Origin: a virus
Strand: one strand, 5' to 3'
DNA: 43,465 nucleotides
Virus record (IMG/VR): IMGVR_UViG_3300042391_000311
Location: 1 to 43,465 of that record
Numbering within the stretch: the first letter of the stretch is position 1; each line of letters opens with the position of its first letter. Both the position numbers and the translations under genes were made by a program. The notes beneath the pieces were generated by a model. That model was not told the DNA's origin. It worked only from the letters and a program-made list of their open reading frames with translations, and searched no databases. Of the stretch, positions 1-29,141 are shown in pieces.

Positions 1-1183
1 TGTTTTCAAATTGTAATGAATATTTAACGAATCGCTCTGTTAACTCATTAAGCTTTTCGTCTGTATTATAAGTCTGTTTTAAAAGTGACTTGAACTTTGT
101 TTCTACATAAAAGAACGCTGTCTTGATGTCGTTTGTTGGATAGTCTAACATCTTCTTGATTAGTTTAGTTCTCCATTCCAACGTATCTACGTTAGGCACT
201 GCACTAATGATACGGAACTCGATACGATTACTATGTATCTTGATTGCTTGATACTTCTCATTATCTTCTTTCAAGTCCTTGTTAGATTTACCCTTGCAAT
301 AGTTCTTGTCTACTCTACCATGATACAATGCATACAATAGTGGGGTATATCCCTTAACTTTCTCAAACATTTGCTCACCAGTCAAGCCTACTTCTGATAA
401 GTTGATATGCCCACCACAACTATAAGACTTGTCAGCGTTGATATGACTAACTAACAACTCATTACCTCGTATATGTTCAAAGATTTTCTTGATATTCAAC
501 TCGAATGTAGGTGATACTAACTCGAAACCACTACAACTATTAAGGCTGCCGTCTGACTCTTTACGCCACATATGGTCTGTCTTGCTTTCGAAGTCATCTA
601 TATCAATACTATTACGCACGTCCTCATCTTCTTTCTCTATCTCGTAACCGATATAATATCTTGGCTTCTTAGACCATGACTTAGTAGTGTACCCACTATT
701 ATGGTACCCTCGCACATAACTAGCATACGGAACTTCTGATACATAACAACCTCTGTCTTCATTATAATACGCATTGTCTATATCCATATATTCGTCAATA
801 TCTTCACACCATACAAGGTCGTAATACTCTAAGCCACGTTCACTATAGTACTCGCCATTATATCTACTAACTCCATATCTATCTATAGCTACACTAGACC
901 ACCACTCTTGATCTCTTCCATTATATACTAAGTGCATATCATCTTCGTCATGCCATTCCTCGGTACGTTCGCACCATCTCACATCGTGAATAGATTGTAT
1001 ATCGCTATTATATGTTACAACGAAGTTTTCTCCATTGAAGAAAATTCCGTCATGACATTCTGCGTCTTCGTATTCATCTATTGATATATAATCATTCTCT
1101 ACTGACTGAATGAATAATTTTACTTTCTCTCTATCGCCACCAAAATAGTCATATAGATTTCTTATCTCGCTTAACGTGTACAT
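1..1183 (-). CDS. Amidoligase-family (GCS/ATP-grasp-like) enzyme, 3' end outside window
   Basis: Open for 394 codons from ATG at 1183 to the left edge with no stop, so the C-terminus is missing. Visible motifs fit the carboxylate-amine ligase (amidoligase) fold: IGYEIE at residues 178-183 (metal/ATP acidic strand), DGSL followed by GFELVSP at 211-225, CGGHIN at 256-261 and RIEFRI at 320-325. The family joins amines to carboxylates of peptides or proteins and turns up in phages and in peptide-modification clusters; the substrate here is unknown. The first ~170 residues are rich in Tyr, Trp, Asp and Glu and are not recognised. The start is 2 nt past the stop of the preceding 54-residue gene, so the two are probably co-translated. 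The family call is from motifs seen by eye; the biological role is inference. Confidence 0.72.
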   Translation of the reverse strand, partial: MYTLSEIRNLYDYFGGDREKVKLFIQSVENDYISIDEYEDAECHDGIFFNGENFVVTYNSDIQSIHDVRWCERTEEWHDEDDMHLVYNGRDQEWWSSVAIDRYGVSRYNGEYYSERGLEYYDLVWCEDIDEYMDIDNAYYNEDRGCYVSEVPYASYVRGYHNSGYTTKSWSKKPRYYIGYEIEKEDEDVRNSIDIDDFESKTDHMWRKESDGSLNSCSGFELVSPTFELNIKKIFEHIRGNELLVSHINADKSYSCGGHINLSEVGLTGEQMFEKVKGYTPLLYALYHGRVDKNYCKGKSNKDLKEDNEKYQAIKIHSNRIEFRIISAVPNVDTLEWRTKLIKKMLDYPTNDIKTAFFYVETKFKSLLKQTYNTDEKLNELTERFVKYSLQFEN

Positions 1184-2743: not shown

Positions 2744-2773
2744 CAAAGGTAACTACTAAATTTGTTTATGCAA
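2744..2773 (-). promoter_or_regulatory. Bacteroidota-type promoter, leftward
   Basis: On the minus strand TTG, a 19-nt spacer and TACCTTTG match the Bacteroidota consensus TTTG-N19-TAnnTTTG. It drives the 92-residue gene about 67 nt downstream and probably the whole leftward block. Confidence 0.6.
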
Positions 2774-2910: not shown

Positions 2911-3160
2911 AAAGAAAGAATATAAGCAAGCAAATAAAAAGAAAGAAAGAAAGGTATATTTATACAAAAAATGTAGCGATATAAAAAAAGATCAAAAAAA
3001 CGCCCTCACTGTTTTTGTTAAATTTTTAACAAAGTTGTTTATATTTTAACAAACTACCAAACGAAAAAACAAACGGAAGGAAGGACGGAAGAACTAACAA
3101 ACGGAAGGACCGAAGGTAGGAAGAAAAGAAGGAAGGTAGCAAGGCAAGAACGAACGAACT
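2911..3160. repeat. Purine-rich tetranucleotide-like low-complexity tract
   Basis: The plus strand is made largely of four-base words such as GAAA, GCAA, GGAA, CGAA and AGGA, with few T residues, in two blocks (2911-2953 and 3059-3160) around a T-rich interval. The word CAAACGGAAGGA occurs twice, at 3070 and 3098. No coding potential is seen. Confidence 0.6.
3014..3053. repeat. 20-bp inverted repeat plus third half-site
   Basis: TTTGTTAAA and TTTAACAAA are perfect 9-bp inverted arms separated by TT (3014-3033). A further TTTAACAAA occurs at 3045-3053, exactly 20 bp from the second arm. The pattern suggests a dimeric protein site with an extra half-site on the same helix face. Confidence 0.5.
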
Positions 3161-3289
3161 ATAAAAAGCTAAAAACTTCAGACAAATTTTTTGAAATCAG
3201 CACCCCCCACCCAAAATAAAGATCACTTTCCTTTTCGGATTTTTTTCGTGGAATGGGGGGGTTATCCCCTACCTCCTTATTTCTAATCC

Positions 3290-3359
3290 TATGTCGCTAG
3301 ACCCCCCTTTATGTCGATATTCGTGTTTTCATGTTGACCCCTGACGACTTTATGTCGAC
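3290..3359 (+). repeat. Left iteron group (four direct 9-mers)
   Basis: TATGTCGCT at 3290, TATGTCGAT at 3310, CATGTTGAC at 3330 and TATGTCGAC at 3351. All have the same orientation at steps of 20, 20 and 21 bp, about two helical turns. Confidence 0.65.
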
Positions 3360-3573
3360 AAAAAAAAATCAGCTATCCCACTGTTTATAGGCTTTTATCT
3401 TCTTTTTTTCCTTTAAAATGTTGTTACCACTACTACTCTATAAATAAAAAAAAAAAACTATATAAAGAGAGTATATAAAGAAAATAAAAAAAATAAAAAA
3501 TAATTTTCAAAAACAATCGGTAACAACATTTTTTTAGCAACTTTTCAAGCCCACTCTATGATATAGGCTGAAT

Positions 3574-3616
3574 TATGTCAACATTTTATCGACATAGGTC
3601 AACATAGAGCGACATA
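3574..3616 (-). repeat. Right iteron group (9-mers mostly inverted)
   Basis: TATGTCAAC at 3574 is direct. ATCGACATA at 3588, GTCAACATA at 3598 and AGCGACATA at 3608 are inverted copies spaced exactly 10 bp, one helical turn. A ninth copy, GTCAACATG, lies at 3673-3681 across the promoter and start codon of the next gene. Confidence 0.65.
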
Positions 3617-3643
3617 GTAACAGAATTTATTTTCACATACCCC

Positions 3644-3673
3644 TTGTTTCATTGGAATTAATGCGTATATTTG
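3644..3673 (+). promoter_or_regulatory. Bacteroidota-type promoter, rightward
   Basis: TTG at 3644-3646, a 19-nt spacer and TATATTTG at 3666-3673 match the consensus. The start codon at 3679 follows so closely that the message would be almost leaderless. A 9-mer iteron copy overlaps the box and the start, suggesting autoregulation. Confidence 0.55.
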
Positions 3674-3678
3674 TCAAC

Positions 3679-4029
3679 ATGAAGGTATGCAGTAAATGTA
3701 AAGAGGGTAAAGACACAGATTGTTTCAATGTTGACTCATCAAAGACTGACGGTCTACACGCAAATTGTAAGGACTGTAGAAAGGAAGATAAGTTAACGAA
3801 GAAGACCTGCACCTGTTGCAAGAAGGAGAAGTCATCGGACTGCTTCCATAGGAACTCTAAATCTACAGATGGGTTGTACACGATATGCAAGGTATGTAGA
3901 TCTCCAGAGAAGAAGGTAAAGAGTAAGGCATGTAGCAAGTGCATGAAGGTAAAGAGGTTGGATGAGTTTCATGCCTACTCGTTGGGTAAGCATGGTGTGT
4001 ACCCGAGTTGTAAAGAATGTCGTAGATAA
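3679..4029 (+). CDS. Triple zinc-ribbon protein (116 aa)
   Basis: Three tandem modules of about 38 residues, each with CxxC near its start, an acidic Phe, a DGL or GVY turn, and a second CxxC (for example CSKC ... CKDC in module 1; CTCC ... CKVC; CSKC ... CKEC). This CxxC/CxxC treble-clef unit usually sits at the N-terminus of phage HNH or endonuclease VII-like nucleases, but no HNH domain follows here, so the protein is zinc fingers only and probably binds nucleic acid. ATG 3679 is chosen because an upstream TTG start would lie before the promoter box and adds no zinc ligand. The gene sits directly beside the 9-mer array, so it could be the array-binding protein; that link is inference. Confidence 0.75.
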   Translation: MKVCSKCKEGKDTDCFNVDSSKTDGLHANCKDCRKEDKLTKKTCTCCKKEKSSDCFHRNSKSTDGLYTICKVCRSPEKKVKSKACSKCMKVKRLDEFHAYSLGKHGVYPSCKECRR

Positions 4030-4099: not shown

Positions 4100-4240
4100 T
4101 TATGTATATTATAACTGGCTCACAAGACAACTTAACATTGTCGGAGGGAATGCAGGATGGTTAAGTGTCCGTGGCATCGGGTGGATTTCTGGTGATATTA
4201 ATCCATGACAGAGGAGAGCAGGTGGGAGCCTCTGTTTTTA
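4100..4240 (+). ncRNA. Structured leader or small RNA ending in an intrinsic terminator
   Basis: A stretch more GC-rich than its flanks, with no credible gene. Stems visible: GTTAT/ATAAC near 4100-4115; GACA-CTTAAC (4126-4136, one bulged A) with GTTAAG-TGTC (4160-4169); TGGATT (4182-4187) with AATCCA (4200-4205); and a terminator stem. GGCTC at 4117-4121 can alternatively pair with GAGCC at 4226-4230, which overlaps the terminator's 3' arm, so a switch is possible. The terminator ends 12 nt before the next start codon, so this may be an attenuator/riboswitch-like leader or a free small RNA. Confidence 0.45.
4208..4239 (+). terminator. Intrinsic terminator before 68-aa gene
   Basis: ACAGAGG (4208-4214) pairs with CCTCTGT (4229-4235) across a 14-nt loop and is followed by a run of five T. 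Confidence 0.6.
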
Positions 4241-4981: not shown

Positions 4982-6550
4982 ATGATAGCAAAAGAGATTT
5001 TCATCAAAGAAGAAGCTCGTAAGCAACTACGCGAGGGCATTAAAATTGTAGCAGACGCAGTTGGTTCTACATTAGGACCTCAAGGACAAACTGTATTGAT
5101 TGAATCAGAGAACATTGTTGGTGGGTTGACAGTTACTAAGGACGGGGTTACCGTCTTACGGAACATTAATCTGTTAAATCCAATACATAACTTAGCAGCA
5201 CAACTTGTCCGTCAGGCGGCAGAGCGCACTGTCTCTACAGCTGGAGATGGTACAAGTACTAGTGCTGTTCTTACAAATGCAATTATCGAGTCATGTGATG
5301 AGGCTATTGGAGAACATGACAACAGAACAGAGATACTGCGTAACATTGTTTCTATTTCTGAGGACGTTGAAAAACAACTTACTAAGATGTCTAAAAAAGT
5401 AAGCGGAAAGAAGTTATACGACATCGCTACAATATCTGCAAACAATGACTCGAGTATTGGTAAGATTATCGGTGACGTGTACAGTAAGTGCGACGTTGTA
5501 ACTGTTGAGAATGGACAAGATACATATACTTTCTTCGATGTAGTTGAAGGGGTTAAGATAGATCGTGGATTTTCTAGTAAATTTTTCATCAACGATCAGA
5601 AGACAGGAACATGCATACTAGAGAATCCATATATCTTAATCACGGACCATCAGATAACTAACCTAATGAATTTAGAGACGATCTTACAGCCTATAATTCA
5701 GTCAGAGAGAGCATTGCTCATCATCGGTGAGTTAGACGCTAAGACGTTAGCTACGATACTTAAGAACGTACACAACGGAGCGCTTAAGTGCTGTAACATC
5801 ATACCACCAAGCTTCGGTTACCGTAAGGATGAGTTGATGTCAGACATCGCGGCTGTTACAGGTGGTAACTACTACTCTGAGCATATGGGAGACAACCTGG
5901 CACTTATTAAGTTGGAGGACCTAGGTACAGCAACAAAAGTTATCGTTGCTCAGGACAAGACGACCATCATCAAGCATAGCGAAGCGCCAGACATTACTGA
6001 GTACATCTCAGAGCTTAAGACATCTGTTAAGAACGCGACAAATAACAACGACATTGAGTTCTTGAACGAACGTATTGCAAACATAGCTGGATCTATTGGG
6101 ATCATTAAGGTAGGGGCAAATACCGACATCGAGCGTAAGGAGCTGAAGGACAGAATCGACGATGCTGTTTTAGCTGTTAAGGCTGCCATCGAGGATGGTA
6201 TCTTACCTGGTGGAGGTATCTCACTTATCAACGCGATACATAGGATACATCCTAAGCTTAATGATCATAGCCATGAGGTAGCTCTTAATATACTTGAGGC
6301 TGCACTACAAAAACCATTTGGTGTGATCTGCAAGAACGCAGGTAAAGATCCTGAGAAGATTGCTAGAGATATTAATAATATTGGTCTTGATGGATACGGG
6401 TATGACTTTAAGAATGATAAACTTGGAGATCTAATGAAGATGGGCATCATTGACCCAACTAAGGTAACAAAGCAGGCGCTTAAGAACGCTGTGTCTGTTG
6501 CAACGACGATATTATCAACTGATGTAATAATTTCAAACGTAAGAGCATGA
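4982..6550 (+). CDS. groEL: Phage chaperonin GroEL-like protein
   Basis: A 522-residue group I chaperonin that would fold proteins in an ATP-driven double ring with GroES. Key elements are intact: LGP at 31-33, the KDG (53-55) and GDGTSTS (88-94) nucleotide loops with Asp54 and Asp89, Asp394 as the likely ATPase residue, and LPGGG at 408-412. The apical domain (about 180-370) is present but divergent. The flexible Gly-Gly-Met tail of bacterial GroEL is absent: the protein ends SNVRA. Its own promoter lies upstream and it overlaps groES by ATGA. Base composition is less AT-rich than the adhesin genes. Phage chaperonins are known but uncommon; a role in folding capsid or other virion proteins is inferred. 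Confidence 0.93.
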   Translation: MIAKEIFIKEEARKQLREGIKIVADAVGSTLGPQGQTVLIESENIVGGLTVTKDGVTVLRNINLLNPIHNLAAQLVRQAAERTVSTAGDGTSTSAVLTNAIIESCDEAIGEHDNRTEILRNIVSISEDVEKQLTKMSKKVSGKKLYDIATISANNDSSIGKIIGDVYSKCDVVTVENGQDTYTFFDVVEGVKIDRGFSSKFFINDQKTGTCILENPYILITDHQITNLMNLETILQPIIQSERALLIIGELDAKTLATILKNVHNGALKCCNIIPPSFGYRKDELMSDIAAVTGGNYYSEHMGDNLALIKLEDLGTATKVIVAQDKTTIIKHSEAPDITEYISELKTSVKNATNNNDIEFLNERIANIAGSIGIIKVGANTDIERKELKDRIDDAVLAVKAAIEDGILPGGGISLINAIHRIHPKLNDHSHEVALNILEAALQKPFGVICKNAGKDPEKIARDINNIGLDGYGYDFKNDKLGDLMKMGIIDPTKVTKQALKNAVSVATTILSTDVIISNVRA

Positions 6551-6813
6551 GAGCTTTAGGAAAATATATCCTTGTACGTCCAGACAAGGACGCTGAGGAT
6601 AAAGTAACAAGCTTCGGTCTTGTTATGACAGACATGGAGAGTAAGAGCGCTCGTTACAAGCGTGGCACAGTTGTAAGTGTTGGCGAGGACCTATCTTACG
6701 AGCTGAAGGCTGATGACTACATCGCTTATGATGCTGTACAGGGTCATGACATCGAGATTGATCATGTAACATATCGCGTCATTATGGAGCGCGACGTAGC
6801 GATTAAGTTTTAA
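6547..6813 (+). CDS. groES: Phage co-chaperonin GroES-like protein
   Basis: An 88-residue GroES-fold protein: an N-terminal strand LGKYILVRPD, a mobile-loop region (about 17-32, with SFGLVMTD in place of the bacterial GGIVL), RGTVVSVGE at about 39-47, the KADDYIAYDA strand and a C-terminal DVAIKF. It would cap the GroEL ring. Translation is coupled to groEL by a 4-nt overlap. The order groEL-groES is the reverse of the usual bacterial operon. Its 3' end overlaps the 3' end of the opposite-strand regulator by 11 bases. Confidence 0.88.
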   Translation: MRALGKYILVRPDKDAEDKVTSFGLVMTDMESKSARYKRGTVVSVGEDLSYELKADDYIAYDAVQGHDIEIDHVTYRVIMERDVAIKF

Positions 6814-20073: not shown

Positions 20074-20288
20074 TAGTCAGAAAGATATCAGTTGGTCCTG
20101 ACTATATGAAGTGCATGCACTATGTAGTTGGACAGCCTGTTCTTGATAAGACCTATAATATTCAAGACATCATTCAGGATATAAATGGTAATATCGATAT
20201 TTATGTTGTTAAGAATGGAGAGATTGTAAAGTGGAAAACTTTCAATAGCACTATCCCTGTAACTATAGAATACAAAATAGACTTTTAA
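20070..20288 (+). CDS. Small beta-rich protein (72 aa)
   Basis: Not recognised. Predicted beta strands through the whole length (KISVGPDYMKCMHYVVGQPV ... EYKIDF). Overlaps the previous gene by 4 nt and shares one base with the next start, so all three are tightly linked upstream of the terminase genes. Confidence 0.6.
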   Translation: MIVRKISVGPDYMKCMHYVVGQPVLDKTYNIQDIIQDINGNIDIYVVKNGEIVKWKTFNSTIPVTIEYKIDF

Positions 20289-20839
20289 TGGTTTCACCCT
20301 ATTATTTTATTGTTAAGCCCCTTAACGGTAAAAGATATGACAGCGAGAAGCAGTACGGAGATAAGACATTTGTCGTAAGTTCATCTCAAGAGGATCATAC
20401 CGTTACCAACAGGTTCGCAGTTATACAAGAGCTTCCCTTAAGCTATAATGGATTTATAGAGAAGGGTGACATCGTCATTGTACACCACAACGTATTCAGA
20501 ATCTATTACGACACAAAGGGTAGAGAGAGAAGTAGTTGGAACCATCTAGAGGACGACATCTTCATCATTGAGTATGACCAGATGTATCTTTACAAGGGAG
20601 CTGATAATATCTGGAAGTCACCATATCCATACTGTTTTGTTAAGCCAATCCTAAATGAGGATGGTGCTACTACAGCTGAAAAGGAGCTGTTTGGAACAGT
20701 GAAGTTTATTCCTGAGAACGACTACAACATAAGTCCAGGTGACGTGGTATCGTTCAGACCTGACTCTGAGTATGAGTTTAGAATTGATGACGAGAAGTTA
20801 TATAGAATGAAATTAGATAACCTATGTCTGAGAGCTTAA
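20288..20839 (+). CDS. Two-domain GroES-like protein (183 aa)
   Basis: Two halves each look like a GroES beta-barrel. The first has FAVIQELPLSYNGFIEKGDI followed by an IV strand and YDQMYLY (about 43-102); the second has GTVKF then ISPGDVVSFRPDSEYEFRID and KLYRMKLDNLCL (about 136-181). Compare the canonical GEVLAVG / VKVGDIVIFNDG / VLIMSESDILAI. It overlaps the small terminase-like gene by 16 nt. A co-chaperonin or capsid-assembly role is inferred; I have not seen this proven for the family. Confidence 0.5.
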   Translation: MVSPYYFIVKPLNGKRYDSEKQYGDKTFVVSSSQEDHTVTNRFAVIQELPLSYNGFIEKGDIVIVHHNVFRIYYDTKGRERSSWNHLEDDIFIIEYDQMYLYKGADNIWKSPYPYCFVKPILNEDGATTAEKELFGTVKFIPENDYNISPGDVVSFRPDSEYEFRIDDEKLYRMKLDNLCLRA

Positions 20840-21120
20840 AAGATAAGAAGGTACGCGTACTTGAAGCAGCCGAGTGTGCTGTTGATGAGTTGATTAACGT
20901 GCTGAAGGAGAAGATCATAACTCACGGAGAGGATGACCTATCTGCTGATAAGATGAAGAACGCTGCATCTGCAAAGAGGTTGGCATTTGATGATGCTATA
21001 GCTATGCTACAGAAGATTGATGATGAAAGAAATAAACTAGAAGAGAAGCCAGTTACTGAGGTAGTCTCAGGTAAGTTTGGTTTTGCTGAAGGAAGGGCAA
21101 GCAAGAATGGTAGGAAATAA
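20824..21120 (+). CDS. Probable small terminase subunit (98 aa)
   Basis: Helical, charged protein with AAECAVDELINVLKEKI near the start, then SAKRLAFDDAIAMLQKIDDE (about residues 50-68) and a Lys/Gly-rich tail. It lies directly before the large terminase and overlaps it by 14 nt, the usual place of the DNA-recognition small subunit in crAss-like and related phages. Named by position and size, not by a clear domain. Confidence 0.5.
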   Translation: MSESLKDKKVRVLEAAECAVDELINVLKEKIITHGEDDLSADKMKNAASAKRLAFDDAIAMLQKIDDERNKLEEKPVTEVVSGKFGFAEGRASKNGRK

Positions 21121-23335
21121 TTATGCGCTATATACGATCGATACAAAGCACGTATCTCAGAGCATCATAAATTCTAGGAACAAGAAGAAGTTATGGAAGT
21201 ATGGGTACGATGAGAAGTACGACCTAGTTGTTATATCTAAGGATGGAACGGTTGGTGAGGTTTATCTTATCAACGGTCTGTACATTGGTCTCCCACTAGC
21301 TCCAGAGAAACTGCCAAAGGGAGACAATAGATGGATTCCTTACGATTACCCTAAAGAGCTTTCAAAGGTTAAGACAATCTTTGAGTGGAACAGAAGAGAT
21401 AACGACTTCAAAGCTAAGTGGGTAGACTTTATTGAGGAGGAGTTCGATAGGCGAGAGTTTGGTCACTTCTTCATGAATAACAGCAAGTCTACTTACTTAA
21501 CAGGTACTCACTATATGTACCTACAGTGGACTAAGATTGATGTTGGTCTACCTGACTTCCGTGAATCAAACAGGATATATTTTATTTTTTGGGAGGCTTG
21601 TAAGGCTGACTCTCGTTGTTTTGGTATGTGCTACCTTAAGAACAGACGTTCTGGGTTCTCATTTATGTCATCAGCAGAGACGGTTAACATTGGAACACTT
21701 GCAAAGGATTCACGACTTGGAATATGTTCTAAGACAGGGTCGGATGCTAAGAAGATGTTTACGGATAAGGTCGTTCCAATCATTAGAAACTACCCATTCT
21801 TCTTCAAGCCCGTTCAGGACGGTATGGACAATCCAAAGACAGAGATTGCGTTCCGTGTTCCTGCATCTAAGATTACCAAGAAGAACATGAACGAAGAGCA
21901 TGAGGAGGAGATTGAGGGTCTTGATACAACGATTGACTGGAAGAATACAGCGGACAACTCATACGATGGTGAGAAGCTACTCTTCTTGGTTGAGGATGAG
22001 GCTGCTAAGTTAGAGCGACCTAACAACATCCTTAACGGTTGGCGCGTAAGAAAGACCTGTCTGCGTCTAGGTAGCAAGATCATTGGGAAGTGCATGATGG
22101 GATCTACATCCAACTCACTGGATAAAGGTGGTGAGAATTACAAGAAGTTATACAACGACTCAAACCCGTCAGTAAGGTCAGGTAATGGTCAGACCAAGAG
22201 TGGGTTGTACTCTCTGTTTATTCCTATGGAGTGGAACTTCGAGGGTTATATCGACGAGTTCGGTATGCCTGTATTCGATGATCCAGAGAAGCCAGTTAAG
22301 GGAATTGATGGCGAGATGATAAAGATTGGCGTCATATCCTATTGGAACAATGAGGTTGCTGCATTGAAGAATGACTCTGATGCATTGAATGAGTTCTACA
22401 GACAGTTCCCTAGGACTGAGTCTCACGCATTTAGAGATGAGTCTAAGCAATCTTTATTCAATTTAACTAAGATATATCAACAGATAGATTATAACGACTC
22501 CCTGATTAAGGAAAAGTTCCTTACGAGAGGAAACTTCCACTGGTTAAATGGGAAGGAGGACACAAAGGTTGTTTGGTCGCCAGAGAAGAACGGTCGTTTC
22601 CTTGTTTCTTGGATGCCGACTGGTTCAATGGCAAATAATGTGATTGTGAAGAATGGGCGTAAATACCCAGGAAATGATCACCTAGGAGCATTTGGATGCG
22701 ATCCATACGATATATCTGGAACTGTTGGTGGTGGAGGATCTAATGGTGCTTTACACGGGATGACTAAGTTTCATATGGATAACGCGCCAACCAATGAGTT
22801 CTTTCTCGAATACATTGCTAGACCTCAGACAGCTGAGATATTCTTCGAGGATGTACTTATGGCGTGTATATTCTATGGTATGCCTGTACTGGTTGAGAAC
22901 AACAAGCAGCGACTACTGTACCACATCAAGAACAGAGGGTACAGGGGTTTTTCTATGAATAGACCAGACAAGCACATTTCTAAGCTGTCTAAGACAGAGA
23001 TAGAGCTTGGGGGAATACCTAACTCATCTGAGGATGTTAAACAAGCTCACGCGTCCTCTATCAACTCATACATCGAGGAGTATGTAGGTATGGACTCTGA
23101 GGGAACCTACAGGGATACGGACACTATTGGATCTATGTACTTTACTAGGACTCTAGAGGATTGGGCTAGGTTCGATATAAACAATCGTACAAAGCATGAT
23201 GCATCTATTAGTTCGGGACTTGCAATTATGGCAAATAGAAGGCATACATTCATAAAGCAAATTGAGAAATCAAAAATAAATATTAATTTTGCAAGATACA
23301 ATAATAGTGGCAATATAAGTCAATTAAAAAAATAA
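21107..23335 (+). CDS. terL: Large terminase subunit
   Basis: Packaging motor (ATPase plus nuclease), 742 residues. The segment STYLTGTHYMYLQWTKIDVG (128-147) is characteristic of crAss-like terminases. ATPase: Walker A-like KNRRSGFS (178-185), Walker B LLFLVEDEA (291-299) and coupling GSTSN (332-336). Nuclease: Asp532 in FGCDPYD, Glu597 in VLVEN and Asp698 in KHDAS. ATG 21107 is chosen; an upstream TTG adds no conserved sequence. Its stop is shared by the portal start, a tight coupling. Confidence 0.92.
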   Translation: MVGNNYALYTIDTKHVSQSIINSRNKKKLWKYGYDEKYDLVVISKDGTVGEVYLINGLYIGLPLAPEKLPKGDNRWIPYDYPKELSKVKTIFEWNRRDNDFKAKWVDFIEEEFDRREFGHFFMNNSKSTYLTGTHYMYLQWTKIDVGLPDFRESNRIYFIFWEACKADSRCFGMCYLKNRRSGFSFMSSAETVNIGTLAKDSRLGICSKTGSDAKKMFTDKVVPIIRNYPFFFKPVQDGMDNPKTEIAFRVPASKITKKNMNEEHEEEIEGLDTTIDWKNTADNSYDGEKLLFLVEDEAAKLERPNNILNGWRVRKTCLRLGSKIIGKCMMGSTSNSLDKGGENYKKLYNDSNPSVRSGNGQTKSGLYSLFIPMEWNFEGYIDEFGMPVFDDPEKPVKGIDGEMIKIGVISYWNNEVAALKNDSDALNEFYRQFPRTESHAFRDESKQSLFNLTKIYQQIDYNDSLIKEKFLTRGNFHWLNGKEDTKVVWSPEKNGRFLVSWMPTGSMANNVIVKNGRKYPGNDHLGAFGCDPYDISGTVGGGGSNGALHGMTKFHMDNAPTNEFFLEYIARPQTAEIFFEDVLMACIFYGMPVLVENNKQRLLYHIKNRGYRGFSMNRPDKHISKLSKTEIELGGIPNSSEDVKQAHASSINSYIEEYVGMDSEGTYRDTDTIGSMYFTRTLEDWARFDINNRTKHDASISSGLAIMANRRHTFIKQIEKSKININFARYNNSGNISQLKK

Positions 23336-28376: not shown

Positions 28377-29141
28377 ATGAAAATGAAAAAATTAGAGAAA
28401 AAAGATAGAACCTATCTTTTGTGTGGCGACTTACAGCCATTATCATTATTTATTGCATCAAGAGATTCTCAGAGAAAGAGATTATTATATTTTGATGAAG
28501 AAAATCAAACAAACAGAGCGTTAAGATACGCAAGAAATCAGAAGTCTGTGTTTATGGACGAACAAGATGAAAATGTTATCTTAGAACCAATCATCTTTCA
28601 AGATGGAGTGTTAAGTGTTCCAAAAAGTAATCCTGTATTACAAGAGTTTTTAAGTTATCACCCAGGAAATGTAACTAATGGTGGAGCTCAGTTCTACGAG
28701 TATGATGCAGAGAAGTCAGCATCTGATTCAGTAGAAAGATTATTCAACGAGGTTGATGCATTGATTGCAGCACGTGAACTGGATTTAAACACTATGTTAG
28801 CAGTTGGTCGTGTTTATCTTAATGGAGACGTTGATAAGATGTCATCTGCTGAGTTAAAGAGAGACATCTTGGTATTTGCTAAGAACTATCCAAATGATTT
28901 CTTAGACGCGATTAATGACCCAGACTTAAGTGTTAGTAACATTGCATCTAGAGCTATCAACGAAGGTTATGTAACCTTCAGAGCTGGTAAGGATCTTTAC
29001 TACAACTTAAAAGACAACAAAAAGAAAATTCTAACGGTTCCATTCGGTACAGAAGCTAGTGACGCGTTGATGACGTGGTTACATTCTGACGAGGGAGTTA
29101 AGCTATATGAATATCTCCAAAACGAATTCGGAGAAATTTAA
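28377..29141 (+). CDS. Conserved virion-associated protein (254 aa)
   Basis: Matches a conserved family in phages with crAss-like capsids, recognisable by LLYFDEENQTNRALRYARNQ (about 37-56), then LDLNTMLAVGRVYLNGDVDK, SSAELKRDILVFA and a C-terminal LTVPFG. Function is not established; a capsid or portal-associated role is inferred from position right after the capsid gene. It lies between two strong terminators with no TAnnTTTG box upstream, so it may depend on read-through from the capsid gene. Confidence 0.7.
   Translation: MKMKKLEKKDRTYLLCGDLQPLSLFIASRDSQRKRLLYFDEENQTNRALRYARNQKSVFMDEQDENVILEPIIFQDGVLSVPKSNPVLQEFLSYHPGNVTNGGAQFYEYDAEKSASDSVERLFNEVDALIAARELDLNTMLAVGRVYLNGDVDKMSSAELKRDILVFAKNYPNDFLDAINDPDLSVSNIASRAINEGYVTFRAGKDLYYNLKDNKKKILTVPFGTEASDALMTWLHSDEGVKLYEYLQNEFGEI

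Follow-up and report, generated by a model that had tools for sequence, protein, structure and literature searches.

Mirrored, helix-phased ATGTYR boxes around an A/T-rich core as a probable replication origin of a Bacteroidota podovirus

In SaPI origins, two opposed sets of iterons flank an A/T-rich region, and P4 carries two iteron sites, ori and crr, a few kb apart. It is the C-terminal domain of the SaPI Rep protein that binds the iterons, and the protein apparently does so as a pair of hexamers (PMC7581432). Here, we describe an array of short boxes at 3290-3616, with an outlying box at 3673, in a stretch of viral DNA of 43,465 nucleotides (the window; IMG/VR record IMGVR_UViG_3300042391_000311), which, to judge from its sequence and its relatives, is very probably a replication origin.

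The phage and the layout of the array

The window covers part of a podovirus-like genome, and to the right of the array come genes for terminase, portal, capsid and GroEL/GroES; at the left end of the window, an open-ended leftward gene (2-1183, minus strand) encodes a 394-aa protein without a Pfam match. By terminase, the nearest named genomes are MW202828 (67%) and Flavobacterium phage elemo (43%), with further matches to the Cellulophaga phages phi19:3 (39%) and phi38:1 (35%), and the source is a Bacteroidota podovirus related to elemo and the Cellulophaga phages. An impression of Crassvirales membership, drawn from terminase and portal PHROGs, was dropped since the nearest named phages are MW202828, elemo, Baltivirus and Callevirus. 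BLASTN of the array region against named phages gave no DNA-level match. Among complete relatives, IMG/VR 3300012664_000155 (hereafter G002) comes closest, a genome of 64.9 kb with a 55-bp terminal repeat and a terminase 97% identical to that of the window. The parts of the array are listed below, together with their counterparts in the relatives L003 and L022.

3290-3298 (+): box L1, TATGTCGCT; CATGTCGCT in L003
3310-3318 (+): box L2, TATGTCGAT; unchanged in L003
3330-3338 (+): box L3, CATGTTGAC; TATGTCGAC in L003
3351-3359 (+): box L4, TATGTCGAC; AATGTCGAC in L003
3415-3428 (+): inner left arm, AAAATGTTGTTACC, with box ATGTTG; AAAATGTTGACACC in L003 and L022
3429-3437 (+): (ACT)3, a DnaA-trio-like repeat; kept in L003 and L022
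3438-3516 (no strand): A/T-rich core, putative DNA-unwinding element
3519-3532 (-): inner right arm, GGTAACAACATTTT, with inverted box CAACAT
3574-3585: overlapping boxes TATGTCAAC (+) and AATGTTGAC (-)
3588-3596 (-): box R3, ATCGACATA
3598-3606 (-): box R2, GTCAACATA
3608-3616 (-): box R1, AGCGACATA
3673-3681 (-): outlying box, GTCAACATG, over a promoter -7 element and the ATG at 3679; identical in L003

The nine 9-mers of the preliminary description were confirmed at 3290, 3310, 3330, 3351 and 3574 (plus strand) and at 3588, 3598, 3608 and 3673 (minus strand), with steps of 20, 20 and 21 bp on the left and of 10 and 10 bp on the right, and their variants are mirrored as claimed, with one CGCT box, one CGAT box and YGAC boxes on each side. 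In the whole record, the exact 9-mer TATGTYGAC occurs only at 3351 and 3598. The core motif (ATGTYG/CRACAT) has 11 sites in 400 bp, against a maximum per 400 bp that averaged 3.1 and never exceeded 7 when the 43-kb record was shuffled 300 times with dinucleotides preserved, and the rest of the window holds no cluster of equal density. Two boxes had been overlooked (3418-3423 and 3524-3529), both within the 14-bp inverted repeat that flanks the core. The three right-hand boxes at 10-bp steps stand in a different order in the window (3588-3616) and in the 84%-identical relative L003 (3053-3081), which suggests that units may be exchanged within the array.

The core had been described as an A/T-only run, a claim that does not hold: 3439-3516 is 91% A+T and its longest A/T-only run is 27 nt. 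It is the second least stable 90-bp place of the record. The arms on either side covary (GTTGTTACC/GGTAACAAC versus GTTGACACC/GTGTCAAC in L003 and L022), with the adjacent (ACT)3 and the core unchanged; this covariation, seen in three sequences only, is suggestive of a hairpin but not proof of one. Single-strand folding beat 198 of 200 shuffles (z = -2.5).

The surroundings of the array comprise the following features.

2744-2773 (-): divergent promoter TTG-N19-TACCTTTG of the leftward gene
3164-3208 (+): conserved non-coding element AAAAGCTAAAAA...CACCCCCC
3644-3673 (+): promoter TTG-N19-TATATTTG of the 3679-4029 gene
3679-4029 (+): array neighbour, a zinc-ribbon repeat protein with endonuclease VII-like PHROG matches
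4982-6550 (+): phage GroEL, the large gene nearest the array on its right, an arrangement shared by many relatives

The promoter at 3644-3673 is of Bacteroidota type. The outermost box at 3673 does overlap this promoter and the start codon, as had been observed, so a regulatory side-role for the box is possible. The products of 3679-4029 and 2399-2677 had been proposed to bind the array; only their position favours this, and the 2399-2677 product has no family match and its gene lies outside the blocks conserved in L003. The element at 3164-3208, which is perhaps part of the origin, stands 79-82 bp before the first box in the window, L003, L017 and L018, and it is present near the array of L285 too.

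The non-coding block at 2731-2927, which contains the leftward promoter, is 94% identical to L003, above the conservation of GroEL. Between two conserved blocks, 3000-3160 holds purine-rich GGAAGG-type repeats where L003 has unrelated sequence, and appears from this comparison to be a rapidly changing spacer. Just downstream of the zinc-ribbon gene, the non-coding block at 4110-4239 is 84% identical to L003, where tRNA-like sequences surround its counterpart; a structured RNA is possible, and Rfam and tRNA scans of the window gave no matches. There are two GroES-like genes, one adjoining GroEL (6547-6813) and one near the terminase (20288-20839).

Conservation of arrays and stability of their cores

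The array is kept in close relatives: L003 matches the window at 84% identity over 3160-3726, a level similar to that of the GroEL region. When 2.9 million viral contigs of IMG/VR were scanned for exact matches to three CRACATR boxes placed every 10 bp, 27 stretches were recovered, and nine of the 12 source records tested carry the window's terminase at 69-97% identity; in the relatives tested, this motif occurs at one place each. A scan with the core sequence recovered only two already known relatives. Dozens of related phages have arrays of like plan, often with two in a genome, although such counts overstate significance because the relatives are not independent. The first array lies in front of GroEL; the second, in many relatives, is placed either next to a DnaA domain IV gene or in the interval from SSB to the primase-helicase, usually 5-11 kb from the first. 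Specifically, the second array of G002 (28790-29100; L033) has such a domain IV gene about 350 bp away, and nowhere in the genome is the DNA less stable than in its core. Neighbouring genes vary among phages and the array stays. Several relatives, for example G016, have few or no ATGTYR boxes.

Across 34 arrays, 225 of 250 boxes face the core and box spacings cluster at 8-11, 20-21 and 31-32 bp. The box logo holds information only in ATGTYR, with a weak TT flank, and is partly built in by the ATG[TC][CT][GA] pattern used to gather the boxes. A pattern search of 21 further records gave a count of 30 versus 24 in the control, and because this is barely above control only phased clusters were used.

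All 22 cores tested rank among the 0.75% of positions with the lowest stability. In G002, G004, G005, G010, G013, G019, G021, G028 and MW202828, no 90 bp of the genome or available sequence is less stable than the core, and the two arrays of G021 are its two least stable places. In the complete relatives G002 and G013, the cumulative GC-skew minimum lies at the first array (23-kb bin, array at 23213; genome start, array at 186), and in MW202828 and G006 it lies within about 1 kb of that array, although this minimum cannot separate replication from transcription because it coincides with the point of divergent transcription.

Candidate initiator and competing readings

Taken as a whole, the explanation that we consider likely is an origin worked by the phage's own D5-family primase-helicase. 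ATGTYR iterons, inward-pointing and helix-phased, would stand on both faces of an unwinding core; the enzyme, with a BT4734-like primase, a ring helicase and a C-terminal winged helix, would bind them as two opposed hexamers and melt the core, whereupon bidirectional replication would start and the host polymerase would extend. The second mirrored array would serve as a second or helper origin, comparable to ori and crr of P4.

The initiator gene lies outside the window, which is a fragment, and is inferred from G002. Each of the 17 near-complete relatives examined, G002 included, encodes a fused primase-helicase with the Pfam domains BT4734-like_N and PriCT_1, the Walker motif NPEGGTGKG and a conserved C-terminal region. 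Among these relatives are G006 and G014, which have arrays but no DnaA domain IV proteins. The elemo phages encode the primase part only (residues 2-300, 37%) and have no arrays, and so may act as a natural control in support of the primase-helicase as initiator. The helicase half, modelled with AlphaFold from an alignment, reached a mean pLDDT of 62.6, with low confidence over the ATPase core, and its C-terminal 80 residues (pLDDT about 86) show the winged-helix order of elements. Foldseek matched it to D5-family PDB entries, among them the SaPI5 primase-helicase 7ola (3.6e-6), at low TM-scores of 0.3-0.4; PDB searches by sequence found no significant match. Because of its co-occurrence with arrays, the elemo control and what is known of SaPI Rep (PMC7581432), we lean, on balance, towards the D5-type primase-helicase as the protein that binds the boxes.

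The arrangement of gene and array differs among relatives. A notion that the array always lies upstream of the primase-helicase gene was rejected, as at least three boxes stand just upstream at only 4 of 73 loci; the array is so placed in a subset of relatives, and in G002 the first and second arrays are about 12.6 kb and about 7 kb from the gene. As a lead only, GTAAC repeats, direct then inverted, surround an A/T-rich stretch at about 5040-5300 of Bacteroides phage BT-TP2 (L200), downstream of a distant helicase homologue (a 28% similar segment).

Alternatively, the boxes of the origin could be bound by stand-alone DnaA domain IV proteins lacking the AAA+ motor, which would recruit the primase-helicase. 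Such proteins, one or two per genome in most relatives, are 90-230 aa long, carry the DnaA helix-turn-helix (PF08299) and are related to structurally characterised DnaA domain IV, and in G002 one gene is a close neighbour of the second array. Furthermore, trio-like (CTA/TAG) runs are enriched in arrays (15 versus 3.4 in shuffles), many arrays being without any. However, no domain IV protein was detected in G006, G014, G034, G038 and G039 despite their arrays or phased boxes, and the searched parts of phi19:3 and Gundel, whose annotations include a DnaA protein, hold no array of this kind. The DnaA AAA+ domain (PF00308) is absent from the 12 records tested. A reading of the 9-mer as a DnaA box (TTATNCACA) was rejected, as none of 31 arrays holds TTWTNCACA and the logo is ATGTYR, and covariation between box and recognition helix was not demonstrable. 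As several records with arrays lack them and no DnaA box occurs in the 31 arrays, we rank the domain IV proteins as accessory, regulatory or second-choice binders; an accessory or regulatory role is probable, and their being the box binders is unlikely.

A related and similarly unlikely idea is that of an undescribed class of origin, in which two mirrored arrays per genome would be worked jointly by a D5-type primase-helicase and motor-less, DnaA-derived domain IV proteins. In such a class, the domain IV proteins would either bind boxes or bridge the two arrays, making a phage hybrid of a satellite-type self-loading origin and oriC.

The preliminary description had left the choice between an origin and a large operator, at which a phage regulator on the phased boxes would control the divergent flanking promoters by DNA looping. 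The promoters at 2744-2773 and 3644-3673 do flank the array, the outermost box covers a -7 element and start codon, many arrays are adjoined by promoters, and in relatives arrays precede the GroEL or primase-helicase gene. Yet an operator needs no inward mirrored polarity around a core that is the genome's least stable DNA, and the flanking genes change between phages while the array is retained. Overall, the origin is clearly favoured by 1) conservation, 2) the stability minimum of the core, 3) the GC-skew minimum of complete relatives and 4) a density of boxes unequalled elsewhere in the window, and we consider the operator quite unlikely; none of the results named beforehand as adverse (9-mers as frequent elsewhere, an array not kept, skew pointing elsewhere) was found. 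A packaging (pac/cos) or partition site, which would also be intergenic, rich in repeats and few per genome, is highly improbable given that the array is far from the terminase (21077-23332), that several relatives have two copies, that no partition gene was recognised among the proteins scanned and that an unwinding core is not expected there.

Comparison with described origins

Reading the array as an origin worked by the primase-helicase provides, from sequence alone, a testable origin and initiator for widespread, almost uncultured aquatic Bacteroidota phages, and raises the question of what role motor-less DnaA domain IV proteins play beside primase-helicases.

Like iteron plasmid and SV40-type origins, the arrays have phased repeats and an A/T core, and an IHF-consensus site (WATCAANNNNTTR) occurs in 12 of 31 arrays (0.9 expected); in contrast, the window's clade has no such site (none in the window, L003 or G002), and the initiator family differs. 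With bacterial oriC and its basal unwinding system, the array shares boxes beside an A/T-rich unwinding element and a trio-like (ACT)3 adjoining boxes, and the relatives encode DnaA domain IV proteins, whereas the array lacks DnaA boxes and an AAA+ DnaA and is symmetric in layout. The alpha protein of P4 is a fused primase-helicase, as is the candidate initiator, but the window's group has a primase of the BT4734-like N type, another repeat and both arrays mirrored around a core. SaPI origins with Rep pair short iterons with a D5-family helicase bearing a C-terminal winged helix, and a loading of two hexamers is proposed for them, as we propose here. The array is not filed as a SaPI-type member because it is not directly downstream of the helicase gene, and the window phage is, in contrast to SaPI, a full-size podovirus rather than a satellite, with a different box sequence and often two arrays per genome in its group. 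Our reading of the array suggests that fused primase-helicases of the SaPI and P4 kind may drive full-size phages.
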